This document shows positions 19,161 to 24,056 of a stretch of DNA of 64,000 bases, piece by piece. The DNA is from Halovivax ruber XH-70 (GTDB lineage: Archaea > Halobacteriota > Halobacteria > Halobacteriales > Natrialbaceae), in assembly GCF_000328525.1 (NCBI RefSeq), contig NC_019964.1, positions 1,798,001 through 1,862,000 on the forward strand. Direction: 5' to 3'. Both the position numbers and the translations under genes were made by a program. Under the pieces are notes generated by a model. The model saw only the letters and a program-made list of their open reading frames with translations, was not told the origin of the DNA and did no database searches. Numbering within the stretch: position 1 is the stretch's first letter; each line of letters starts with the position of its first letter.

Positions 19161-19979
19161 CTACGTGAGCATGCTCTGGGCGACCGTCGCCAGCTGCCCG
19201 TTGTCGGCTTCGGCGAGGCGGTCGTCGCCGATCTTGAGGCGCAGGCGTGGGCGACCGACGTCGATCGGAACCTTCTCCGTGTCGATTAGACCCATGTCCT
19301 CGAGCTTCGTCTTCGTGCGGCTGAACGTCGCCTTCGAGGCGATGCCGACGTCCTCGCCCCACTTGCTGATGTCGTAGAGCAGCGCTTCGTTTCGCGCCGC
19401 GACGAGCAGCGAGATCGTCACTTCGTCGAGGCCGTCGCCGTCGCCGCGGGCCGTCTCGAGCGAGTCGAGGATCGAACTGAAGTCTTCCTCGGCCTCGGGA
19501 CTGATCTCGTCCGAGAGCGTCTCTCGGACGCGCGTGATCGGCGGCGTGCGGAGGTTGAAGTCCTCGGCGTCGTCCCAGCGGTCGGCGTAGGTCTCGGTCG
19601 TCGCCGCGACGAACTCGTCGTCGTTCGAGACGAGCCCACCGACGCGGTCGGCGGCGTGGACGATCGCGATGACGGCGTCTTCTGTCACGAGAAGCGAGTT
19701 TTCAGGTGTCTCCTCGAGCGTTCGGAGCGCGAGGGCGTCCTCGTCGATGAGGTCCGCCGCGTTACTCGCGACGATGAAGTCGTCCATGACGTCCTTCAGC
19801 GTCCGCTCGTCGGCGAGCATGTGGACCATCGGGAGGTCACCGTCGTACTCCGTAGCGACCGAGACGAAATCCTCGATCGCGTCCCACGACGGGTTGACCA
19901 TGTAGACGTCTCCACTAGTTTCTGACAGTACCGTTTCGACGATATCGTCAATCTGACGATTCAGTAAATTCGAATCCAT
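19161..19979 (-). CDS. tbsP: Transcriptional regulator TbsP (DUF5821)
   Basis: A 272-residue haloarchaeal regulator of the TbsP type. The N-terminus MDSNLLNRQIDDIVETVLSE and the central HAADRVGGLVSNDDEFV segment are characteristic. The C-terminal 70 residues form a winged-helix domain (VTISLLVAARNEALLYDISKWGEDVGIASKATFSRTKTKLEDMGLI), TrmB/ArsR-like in pattern. The whole chain seems soluble. A TATA-like AAAATTAAG lies about 35 bases upstream. Family assignment is from memory of the pattern; targets are unknown here. Confidence 0.82.
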   Translation of the reverse strand: MDSNLLNRQIDDIVETVLSETSGDVYMVNPSWDAIEDFVSVATEYDGDLPMVHMLADERTLKDVMDDFIVASNAADLIDEDALALRTLEETPENSLLVTEDAVIAIVHAADRVGGLVSNDDEFVAATTETYADRWDDAEDFNLRTPPITRVRETLSDEISPEAEEDFSSILDSLETARGDGDGLDEVTISLLVAARNEALLYDISKWGEDVGIASKATFSRTKTKLEDMGLIDTEKVPIDVGRPRLRLKIGDDRLAEADNGQLATVAQSMLT

Positions 19980-20492
19980 GCCTATTGAGAAGTAAGCGGC
20001 CCGTGAGTACTTAATTTTGATGGCCCCTCTCAGGCGGTAAGTTTCACACGAGCCCCAATGAAACGTCCTCGACCGTTGAATTCTGTGATGGCATCTGGAA
20101 TCAGAGGTAGAAATTAGATGGTAGATGGCCTGATACGGGTAACGAACCCACGTTCTCAGTACAAGTCAAAAATACATACTGTAACGATGAAGACATCTTC
20201 AGGTATCTTTAAATAACTAACGGCCAAACAGCCGAATCCCTATGGGTGGCACTCACAGTCCTTGCCACGAACGGCGAATTACGTCCCCGACGACCGTGTT
20301 CACCGCTGAACGCGGTGACCGACTCCGAAAACTGCCGCGACTGTCCCGGTGGCTGACGGACGACGCCCTCGATTCACTGCTAGCAATTTCGATGAAACGC
20401 GTCAGTTCCTACGGCGGCCCGTAACATCCTCGACGGCCCGAAGGCCGAGGGAACCTTCTCCCTCTACCCTCGAACTCACCACAGCCGCCGAC
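19980..20492. other. 513-base stretch without a convincing gene; promoter-like box and hairpin
   Basis: The part next to tbsP (20000-20240) is AT-rich for this genome and holds the tbsP promoter on the minus strand. On the plus strand TTTAAATAA at 20209-20217 lies about 29 bases before an ATG at 20242 that opens a 60-codon frame to 20424. That frame has only about two-thirds G or C at third positions, far below its neighbours, so I do not call it a gene. A bulged hairpin (CCTC, GGCC, loop CGAA, GGCC, GAGG) follows near 20428-20450, just before the end of the CHAT gene from the other side. Confidence 0.5.
20209..20217 (+). promoter_or_regulatory. Candidate TATA box in the tbsP/CHAT interval
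   Basis: TTTAAATAA stands about 29 bases before an ATG on the plus strand, the normal haloarchaeal leaderless geometry. The only product would be an unconvincing 60-residue frame or a short RNA ending at the hairpin near 20450. No second promoter element can be judged by eye. Confidence 0.4.
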
Positions 20493-22655
20493 TTACGGAG
20501 ACCGCTCGTCGGTCGAGAGCTGTCGGGCCAGTCCCTGTGACCAGTACAGGTCTCCGTCGTATATCACGGGCGCGGCCGATTCTGCGAGAAACGTCGCGAC
20601 CGTCGGTCGATCGAGGATGAAATCGGTCTGATTCCCACAGAGCGACGCGTACTCGTTGTCGTCGACGTGGGGAACGTAGTACGAGCCGGTCACGTGCGTC
20701 GCGTAGCACTCGAGGGTGACGTGGTACTGTCCATCGGCGAGCGATTCGAGCGTGATCGTGGTCGGCGTTCGGTGCTCACCCTGTGTGAGCGTGTGTGTGC
20801 CGTCGCCGACGACCGCGTAATCTTTCCCCATCATGATCCGCCGTCGTGCGAGGGCGAGTGCTCGTTCGATACTGAAGCCGTTGACGAGCAGTTTGGCGAA
20901 CATCGAGCCAACCTTCACGGCGTGGTCGTTCAGCACCTGTCTGAACGTGACCGCTCCAGCGACGCTCCCGCGCTCGAGGAGGGTTCGCCCCTCGTAATAC
21001 GAGCCGCAGGCGTTCAGGAAGAACGTCTCGACCGAACACTGGTCCAGGCTCGCCGCCGAGAAATACCCGTCCGAACACCGGAGCCCGTCGTCTTCACAGT
21101 GCCCGATGTAGTGGACGAAGTCCGTCGACGACTCGAAAATATCCGTCAGCGTCGACACTGTACAGCCCTCGCGGACGGTGACGTCGATCGCGAGATCCTC
21201 GGATCGGTCGCGGTAGATGTCAGCGACGTCGGCGTGTTCTCCCTCCATAGAGGGATCGTTCAGGACGACACAGATACTCGTTCGTTCCGCCGGTTCGTCG
21301 AGGTACTCGAGTCGGTTGTAGTACGCCTCCGGCGCCGATTTGAAGACGTCGATCGGAACGCCGTCGGCGAGCCAGCCGTGAACGCTTCCCGTCCGTAACT
21401 CGGGTTTGACGATATCGACAGAAGCGACTTCGCCGGCCCCCGACCGCGTCTCTCTCCTCTCCAGCCCCACCGTGTCGAACCGTCCCTCGCCGTTATCAAG
21501 CTGCGCCACGCCAGTCTCTGACCGCTCAGTGCTACGGCCGCGGTAAAAATCGTCGAGCGACCGCTCGACCAATTCCGTCCCTTCGAGTTCGGTCGTCCGT
21601 GGCTGATAGCACAGGCTCATGCGGTCCAGCAAGAACGGTAAGACGTTCAGCAGTTCGGGATCGGGGTCGACGTACATCGACAGATGCCACTCCGGCAGGC
21701 GATGCTCGATCGCCTCGTAGGGCACGCGAAGATACGCCGCGAGTCGTTCTGCAGGCGAGGCATCGTACAGTTCCGTCGCGTCGAGATCCAGGACGTCGAG
21801 CAGTCGAGCCTCGGTGAGGAGCGTGCCGTACGGGCCGGCGTTGCGAACGAGACAATCGAGGAAGAACACCTTCCGGAGCAAGCGTTCCACCTCGCGTTCG
21901 AAGGCAGGGAACGGCGAAAACGACGCCTCGATCCCCGCATCGGGAATCCGCAACACCGGTTGGTCGATCGGGGCCGTCTCGACCGTCGCCTGGAGGTAGT
22001 ACGACAGCGGCGCGACGACGAACAGCCACTCGTATGCGGGCGGAACCCGAATCTCGATTCCCGTCTCCTTTCGGCGAGAGCTGACCTGATCCGGGATCTC
22101 GAGTTCGTCACCGACCGAGAGTAACGGCGGGTGACCGCGAAGCGTCGGATAGGATCGATCCGGACCCGTAGTCTTGAGCGAGGTCGATAGATACGAAAGC
22201 GCCGTTGCGAGGGCGTCCGGTGATTCGGGAACGGTGATCGTCCCGATCGGAAACTCCTGGCGACTCCGGAAGCCCAGGAGGACCCGACGGCGGTCCGGGA
22301 ACGAGATAACGACCGACTCGAAGTCGTCGGTTCGGCCGATTCGCACTCGACCGGTCGCTCTCACGTAGGTCTTGATCTCCGTGTCGACGTCGATCACGTA
22401 CTCGCCGGCGGGGAGCGACAGTGCCTCACCAGTCGGGTGCAGTTCGTGCTGCGTTCCCGTTCCGAGTGACCGGGCGTAGACGACGGCGTGCGGGAAGCGC
22501 AGCTCCGTCGCCGTCCCCGAGAGTACCTCGTCCACCGGGCGAGAGATATCCGCATCGGACCGCGCGACGTCAAGCAGGTCCCCGGAGACGAGAAGTTCGG
22601 TCGTATCAGAGTCCACAACCCGAAGGTGGTCACCCCCCACCTCCCACTCGATCAT
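20493..22655 (-). CDS. CHAT-domain (caspase-like) cysteine protease
   Basis: A 720-residue protein whose last third matches the CHAT peptidase fold of clan CD. In order come a strand SICVVLNDP, a second strand and helix, the catalytic His motif FVHYIGHC (His519), then VETFFLNACGS with the nucleophile Cys550, and the trailing GAVTFRQVLNDHAVKVGSMFAKLLVNGFSIERALALARR helix pair. Residues 1 to about 430 are beta-rich and not recognised; no TPR repeats or membrane segment are visible. After the protease lies a beta-rich end (about residues 620-720). The gene has its own TATA (ACTAATTAG about 30 bases upstream) and no operon partner, so any substrate is encoded elsewhere. The CHAT call is from motifs; the role is unknown. 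Confidence 0.8.
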   Translation of the reverse strand: MIEWEVGGDHLRVVDSDTTELLVSGDLLDVARSDADISRPVDEVLSGTATELRFPHAVVYARSLGTGTQHELHPTGEALSLPAGEYVIDVDTEIKTYVRATGRVRIGRTDDFESVVISFPDRRRVLLGFRSRQEFPIGTITVPESPDALATALSYLSTSLKTTGPDRSYPTLRGHPPLLSVGDELEIPDQVSSRRKETGIEIRVPPAYEWLFVVAPLSYYLQATVETAPIDQPVLRIPDAGIEASFSPFPAFEREVERLLRKVFFLDCLVRNAGPYGTLLTEARLLDVLDLDATELYDASPAERLAAYLRVPYEAIEHRLPEWHLSMYVDPDPELLNVLPFLLDRMSLCYQPRTTELEGTELVERSLDDFYRGRSTERSETGVAQLDNGEGRFDTVGLERRETRSGAGEVASVDIVKPELRTGSVHGWLADGVPIDVFKSAPEAYYNRLEYLDEPAERTSICVVLNDPSMEGEHADVADIYRDRSEDLAIDVTVREGCTVSTLTDIFESSTDFVHYIGHCEDDGLRCSDGYFSAASLDQCSVETFFLNACGSYYEGRTLLERGSVAGAVTFRQVLNDHAVKVGSMFAKLLVNGFSIERALALARRRIMMGKDYAVVGDGTHTLTQGEHRTPTTITLESLADGQYHVTLECYATHVTGSYYVPHVDDNEYASLCGNQTDFILDRPTVATFLAESAAPVIYDGDLYWSQGLARQLSTDERSP

Positions 22656-22808
22656 TCGGCTTAGCGAATGCGCACGAAGCTAATTAGTTGTATCGGACGA
22701 AGTTCAGACAGATAACACGTTCCACGGGACGCATAGGTGGGTACTCACACCAGTCCGTTCGATGACGAGAGAGGTACACTTATGGCCTGGCCGGGCCGCC
22801 TATCGCGT

Positions 22809-24056
22809 ATGGACCACGAGGCTGTCCGGGCCGTCGATCCGGCCGTGGCGGACGCACTGGAGGCAGAAGTCGAACGCCAGCGGAACTCGCTGCAGATGAT
22901 CGCCAGCGAGAACCACGTCAGCGAGGCGGTACTCGGCGCGCAGGGAAGCGCCCTGACGAACAAGTACGCCGAAGGCTACCCAGGGGCACGCTACTACGGT
23001 GGCTGTGAACACGCAGACACCGTCGAGAACCTCGCCATCGAGCGGGCGAAAGAGCTCTTCGGCGCCGAGCACGTCAACGTCCAGCCCCACTCGGGGACAC
23101 AGGCCAACCAGGCCGTCTACTACGCCATGCTGGACCCCGGCGACAAGATCCTCTCACTCGATCTGAATCACGGCGGGCACCTGAGCCACGGTCACCCGGC
23201 GAACTTCACCGGTCAGCTCTACGAGGTCGAACAGTACGAGGTCGATGCGGAGACGGGCTACATCGATTACGACGGGCTCGCCGAGCAGGCCGAGGCGTTC
23301 GAGCCCGACATCATCGTCTCGGGGTACTCCGCGTACCCGCGCGAGATCGAGTGGGAGACGATCCAGTCCGTCGCCGACACGGTCGACGCCTTGCACCTGG
23401 CCGACATCGCCCACATCACGGGCCTCGTCGCCGCAGGGGTCCACGACTCGCCCGTCGGTGTCGCCGACTTCGTCACCGGGAGCACCCACAAGACGATCCG
23501 GGCGGGCCGGGGCGGCATCGTCATGACGAGCGAGGCGTACGCCGACGACATCGATTCGGCGGTCTTCCCCGGCGGTCAGGGCGGTCCGCTCATGCACAAC
23601 GTCGCGGGGAAAGCCGTCGGGTTCGGCGAGGCGCTCGAACCCGCGTTCGAGGAGTACGCCGCCCAGACGGTAGCGAACGCGAACGCACTCGGGGAGACGC
23701 TCGTCGACCACGGCTTCTCGCTCGTCTCGGGCGGCACCGACAACCACCTCGTCCTCGTCGACCTGCGAGAGTCCCACCCCGACACCTCCGGTGGCGACGC
23801 CGAGGACGCACTGGAAGCCGCGGACATCGTCCTCAACGCCAACACGGTCCCCGACGAGACGCGCAGCCCGTTCGATCCGAGCGGGATCCGTGCCGGCACG
23901 CCGGCGCTGACGACGCGTGGCTTCGACGAAGACGACGTCCGACTCGTCGGTGAGTTGATCGCGCGCGTCGTCGATGCGCCCGAAGACGAGACCGTCCGCG
24001 AGTCTGTCCGTGAAGACGTCGCCGACCTCTGTGCGGCAAACCCGCTCTACGAGTAG
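22809..24056 (+). CDS. glyA: Serine hydroxymethyltransferase GlyA
   Basis: A 415-residue PLP enzyme that interconverts serine and glycine while loading the one-carbon unit on a folate carrier. The N-terminal QMIASENHVSEAVLGAQGS and YYGGCEHADTVENLA, the PLP motif GSTHKTIRAGRGG with Lys228, and the C-terminal GIRAGTPALTTRGF all match. Start 22809 is supported by a CACTTATGG box about 27 bases upstream; an upstream in-frame ATG overlaps that box. FolD, encoded on the same strand 0.7 kb downstream, uses the product. Confidence 0.96.
   Translation: MDHEAVRAVDPAVADALEAEVERQRNSLQMIASENHVSEAVLGAQGSALTNKYAEGYPGARYYGGCEHADTVENLAIERAKELFGAEHVNVQPHSGTQANQAVYYAMLDPGDKILSLDLNHGGHLSHGHPANFTGQLYEVEQYEVDAETGYIDYDGLAEQAEAFEPDIIVSGYSAYPREIEWETIQSVADTVDALHLADIAHITGLVAAGVHDSPVGVADFVTGSTHKTIRAGRGGIVMTSEAYADDIDSAVFPGGQGGPLMHNVAGKAVGFGEALEPAFEEYAAQTVANANALGETLVDHGFSLVSGGTDNHLVLVDLRESHPDTSGGDAEDALEAADIVLNANTVPDETRSPFDPSGIRAGTPALTTRGFDEDDVRLVGELIARVVDAPEDETVRESVREDVADLCAANPLYE

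Follow-up and report, generated by a model that had tools for sequence, protein, structure and literature searches.

What would a gene for a caspase-like protease be doing among the housekeeping genes of a haloarchaeon, and what would set such an enzyme to work? The question is raised by one gene in a 64,000-nucleotide stretch (the window) of the genome of Halovivax ruber XH-70 (3,223,876 bp, one contig), whose product had been described in an initial annotation as a stand-alone CHAT protease with a large unrecognised N-terminal region. The open reading frame, at positions 20493–22655 on the minus strand, has an ATG start and encodes 720 residues, as first read, and its initial MIEW is kept in orthologues; the nearest named locus is that of Halovivax asiaticus (91% protein identity). 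No Pfam, NCBIfam or PADLOC model matches the protein (PADLOC checked up to E 5), which bears out the annotated lack of TPR, and PDB sequence searches with the single protein and with two profiles gave chance matches only. The protein contains no long hydrophobic stretch, and no RNA was found by Rfam over positions 19900–22900.

An AlphaFold2 model of the full-length protein, built with 68 family sequences (pLDDT 83.6, pTM 0.85), contains a caspase-type fold. In a Foldseek search of the PDB the top match was the SAVED-CHAT protease (8tl0; E 7.6e-9, with 20% identity over about 205 columns), followed by gingipain R (E 4e-6), separase (6e-6) and procaspase-3 (1.7e-4), with a CRISPR effector and its caspase regulator also among the top matches; the fold search of BFVD returned a single viral match of low quality. 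The domain spans about residues 415–620 (20796–21413, minus strand). His519, in YIGH (codon 21099–21101, minus strand), and Cys550, in LNAC (codon 21006–21008, minus strand), are 31 residues apart, as annotated, and are preceded in the model by strands 513–517 and 544–548, respectively. A reference alignment was built from 14 CHAT domains of undisputed identity, taken from other genomes in the phylum, in which only one proline, the catalytic histidine and the catalytic cysteine are invariant. Comparison of the C-terminal part of the family with this alignment by hhalign gave a probability of 97.3% (E 2e-11), in a register that places His519 and Cys550 on the invariant histidine and cysteine, whereas the N-terminal part, used as a negative control, gave 0.3%. 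The window protein itself scores below every Pfam threshold, including that of the CHAT model (PF12770), but relatives of the same type in two genomes exceed the CHAT cut-off (34.1 and 28.1 bits versus 24), and a third passes it only together with its in-frame neighbours. The Peptidase_C14 (caspase/metacaspase) model of Pfam does not match the window protein, and its likeness to caspases is one of fold only.

Two checks set out in the initial annotation, a caspase-type fold and conservation of the dyad, both came out in its favour. A search by similarity over the full length of the protein, with no motif required, gave 30 orthologues; every one has both residues, as do 80 further loci, where the cysteine was partly selected by a search pattern containing FFLNACG. 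Among more distant family members the dyad is intact in 74 of 79, and in the family overall in 155 of 160. By sequence comparison and predicted structure, the C-terminal domain is a CHAT/caspase-fold (clan CD) peptidase with predicted catalytic activity.

The remainder of the protein comprises an N-terminal domain, an interdomain linker and a C-terminal extension. The N-terminal domain (residues 1–350; 21606–22655, minus strand; pLDDT 91.9) is mostly β up to residue 145 and α/β thereafter; it is the large β-rich region of the earlier description and likewise has no family match. Its conserved residues are R167, R173, H175, P176, D267, R271 and W323, and the charged and aromatic ones are common to nearly all paralogues. 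A fold search of the isolated domain against the PDB gave no significant match (best E 0.017), and a glycosidase-like fold was discarded, the weak matches having rmsd values of 11–17. The domain was not found standing alone in the three genomes checked, where all strong matches lie in open frames long enough for a full family member. We propose that it is the sensor, and a regulated protease with an N-terminal sensor is our best reading of the window protein. The linker (residues 366–412; 21420–21560, minus strand) is disordered (pLDDT <50) and highly variable in length. After the CHAT domain, a β/α extension (residues 632–715; 20511–20762, minus strand) contains the conserved G657 and W705.

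The linker carries a conserved arginine, Arg372 (codon 21540–21542, minus strand), in an FYR motif proposed here as a cleavage or pseudosubstrate site. An arginine in the F-x-R context is found at this position in 79 of 81 proteins of the window type (type A, defined below) and in 69 of 74 intact copies of other types (non-A); a second linker arginine (404) is kept in about 80% of the non-A copies, in which the other linker columns are poorly conserved. The motif [FL]xR is present in 62 of the 74 intact non-A linkers, against 17 expected by shuffling, and in 140 of 155 dyad-bearing copies versus none of five dyad-less ones. Gingipain R and separase are Arg-specific clan CD enzymes. By analogy with them, the simplest reading of the motif suggests Arg-directed self-cleavage or pseudosubstrate inhibition with arginine at P1, though it could be a docking site instead of a cleavage site. 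This reading is suggestive only, since the five dyad-less copies represent only about three independent lineages and two active-looking methanogen-like members with an intact dyad also lack the motif.

Family members occur in 90 of 103 haloarchaeal genomes of the phylum, all at least 90% complete. Their bit scores separate into a group of 659 or more and one of 576 or less, and on this basis about 60 of the genomes were counted as carrying type A. Members also turn up in four genomes of a different taxonomic family; outside the haloarchaea, in methanogen-like genomes of the same phylum (L121, L122 and L123), the members have the same two-domain layout, that of L122 being without the dyad. Of the five members in the H. 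ruber genome, two have the dyad, namely the window gene and a paralogue at 1,016,592, while three have lost both catalytic residues, one at 786,024 and a tandem pair at 687,751 and 690,045. The tandem pair adjoins a divergent gene for a CobB/CobQ-like glutamine amidotransferase (L040, 7167–12019; 687.2–692.0 kb of the genome). Our literature search found no paper joining the CHAT domain and Halobacteria.

The neighbours of the paralogues were surveyed by calling genes around 77 non-A copies with flanks. Upstream genes on the same strand within 130 bp numbered 34, and 23 of them form a single homologous cluster, identified by Pfam as DUF7504, with several members carrying an N-terminal HalOD1. 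When all immediate neighbours of the 77 copies were considered, 31 of the 35 scanned cluster members were DUF7504 and ten carried HalOD1. At a mean of 5.5 DUF7504 copies per genome (60 relatives), about 0.24 would be expected by chance among 154 neighbours, although a binomial probability would be inexact here, the copies being related and one plasmid sampled twice; the DUF7504-linked copies are scattered over the family tree. A second cluster of neighbours comprises REC-PAS-GAF-HisKA-HATPase kinases and REC-PAS and REC-HalX response regulators. Fifteen Haloferax genomes (L274–L288) share a conserved unit of three genes, in which DUF7504 lies directly upstream of a CHAT gene with its dyad intact and a REC-HalX response regulator is convergent. 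The dyad-less copy at 786,024 (L039, 6827–10773; about 783.8–787.8 kb of the genome) overlaps by 4 bp the preceding gene for a GAF/PAS-HisKA-HATPase histidine kinase, and its dyad-less relative L157 (5731–10022) shows the same kinase-first arrangement at +32 bp; the two form the sister clade of type A (support 0.978). In L211 and L214, Cdc6/AAA_16-like genes lie directly upstream of the paralogue in place of DUF7504.

To our knowledge, the HalOD1 output domain has no known target. HalOD1-iKaiC signalling proteins were described by Galperin et al. (2018; PMC5847659), with no mention of CHAT, and we infer that DUF7504 is probably the "inactive KaiC" (iKaiC) of that earlier work. Since copies other than the window gene are found time and again beside genes for DUF7504/HalOD1 proteins, histidine kinases and response regulators, the family would seem to serve haloarchaeal signal transduction as an effector arm, rather than defence. 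Two observations count against this reading: no DUF7504, HalOD1 or kinase gene lies beside the window copy, and although the H. ruber genome has six DUF7504 genes, not one adjoins any of its five CHAT genes. The annotated absence of a partner gene is thus correct for the window copy as an operon but does not extend to the family.

The window gene instead shares its surroundings with two genes of other functions. Across an intergenic region of 153 bp (22656–22808) lies the divergent glyA (22809–24056, plus strand), named from its sequence as encoding serine hydroxymethyltransferase, an arrangement that is conserved and makes the annotated promoter of its own plausible for the window gene. Downstream, after a 513-bp gap, is tbsP (19161–19979, minus strand; NCBIfam NF047393, E 6e-125), which encodes a transcriptional regulator. 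The 80 type A loci compared represent many genera of haloarchaea; glyA is adjacent in 78 of them, nearly always divergently, and tbsP lies downstream on the same strand in 73. Of 26 genomes lacking type A, about 16 have glyA and tbsP as direct divergent neighbours all the same; the protease is therefore flanked by two genes that stay together in its absence. Type A was either inserted early and then repeatedly lost, or repeatedly lost from an ancestral trio; the window copy is an old gene, inherited in place and not mobile. Many other genomes of Natrialbaceae have a DUF7504 gene on the same strand as type A and some 10 kb downstream of it (for example, G012:C2 415618–417786 and 429343–429849), which is not the case in the window genome.

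The constancy of tbsP raises the alternative that TbsP is the partner of the protease, which would control central metabolism, for instance through cleavage of TbsP. A second, independent adjacency points the same way: on a plasmid of Halobaculum salinum (L165) a CHAT paralogue is divergent from a gene of DUF5821, which we take to be the family of the TbsP N-domain. The persistence of the glyA–tbsP pair without the protease nevertheless weakens the case for a dedicated partner, and the gap between the CHAT gene and tbsP, roughly 150–515 bp across loci, does not suggest an operon. TbsP was demoted as a functional partner on account of that persistence, and we consider this explanation unlikely. 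A comparison by hhalign showed no relation between DUF7504 and TbsP.

A further possibility is that the protease serves in stress or housekeeping and accounts for the caspase-like activity reported from Haloferax volcanii and other archaea. Seth-Pasricha et al. (PMC3615174) described a dominant zVAD-sensitive activity in H. volcanii with no gene assigned to it, and each of 15 Haloferax genomes searched, placed in the genus by way of an Hfx. larsenii plasmid sequence, has exactly one family member, with its dyad intact; the modelled fold of the window protein is caspase-like. That activity, however, was measured on Asp (caspase-4/-8) substrates, and the presumed Arg preference, drawn from the conserved linker arginine, argues against identity; it is reported as widespread among diverse Archaea (PMC3615174), beyond the range of the CHAT family; and the Haloferax copy, with its DUF7504 and REC-HalX neighbours, is a paralogue and does not belong to the window type. 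We regard this identification as quite improbable for the window protease. As a conserved caspase-fold family beside signalling proteins, the family does provide a candidate gene both for the HalOD1 target and for the archaeal activity, and the single copy in Haloferax makes a knockout a simple genetic test in a tractable archaeon.

Another alternative, close to the defence and cell-death framing of the initial annotation, is that the protein is an effector of defence or abortive infection, comparable to SAVED-CHAT, to the TPR-CHAT protease of type III-E CRISPR or to proteases that activate gasdermins. In its favour are the top fold match to a protease of CRISPR defence and the paralogues, which are multi-copy, vary in number and are present on 25 haloarchaeal plasmids. 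The window type, in contrast, is widespread and keeps a single chromosomal place among housekeeping genes, between glyA and tbsP; it has no PADLOC match, the phage and viral-contig collections searched held no homologue of the family, and the neighbours of the paralogues are mostly signalling rather than defence genes. A defence role for the window copy thus finds no support and seems to us very doubtful. One plasmid CHAT copy adjoins a restriction-modification pair. Least probable is a signalling scaffold of caspase-like fold with dispensable proteolysis. Three of the five H. ruber copies lack the dyad yet retain most conserved N-terminal residues, which implies that the fold has a use apart from catalysis, but no type A sequence examined departs from the dyad.

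We return to the regulated protease with an N-terminal sensor. The window-type protein probably cuts proteins upon an intracellular signal. In its specific form, as a cytoplasmic CHAT cysteine endopeptidase that is latent, released through its N-terminal domain by haloarchaeal signal input and cuts after arginine, we give the proposal roughly an even chance of being right. The protein would be made as a latent enzyme; binding of a ligand or signalling partner by the N-terminal domain would free the CHAT domain from the hydrophobic-x-Arg motif of the linker (Arg372), or allow cutting there; and the active enzyme would then cleave one or more cellular proteins after arginine, with a regulator as the probable target. 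For the family as a whole, haloarchaeal signal transduction would provide the input, through DUF7504, HalOD1, histidine kinases and response regulators of the REC-HalX type, and the window copy, which has no signalling partner in an operon, may receive it in trans. More tentatively, Arg-specific caspase-fold zymogens might form the protein-cutting output of a two-component/HalOD1/DUF7504 network, with the dyad-less copies as regulators, a possibility that we hold to be clearly weaker. If true, it would constitute an archaeal relay from signal to proteolysis, made of parts not described together before.

In comparison with known systems, the window protein shares with the CHAT peptidase family (PF12770) the caspase-type fold, the His/Cys dyad on consecutive strands and a profile match with the dyad aligned; it differs in lacking TPR, in its new N-terminal domain and in not being seen by the Pfam model, and the paralogues of the haloarchaeal family differ in their haloarchaeal signalling neighbours. 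Separase and gingipain R are likewise matched by the caspase fold, and an Arg preference like theirs is proposed for the haloarchaeal family, but there is no sequence relation beyond the fold and the accessory domains are other. From the CHAT effectors of type III CRISPR and CBASS (Csx29, SAVED-CHAT) the protein is set apart by having no TPR, SAVED or Cas match. Among solved structures SAVED-CHAT (8tl0) nonetheless comes closest to the CHAT domain, and its layout, an N-terminal sensor followed by a C-terminal CHAT domain, is the one proposed for the window protein, whereas in the latter no SAVED domain is detected, the N-terminal domain has no significant PDB match and the neighbours are glyA and tbsP. 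With the HalOD1-iKaiC proteins (PMC5847659) the link is through DUF7504 and HalOD1-DUF7504, the recurrent operon neighbours of the CHAT paralogues. What is new is the signalling context of the family, together with the linker motif.
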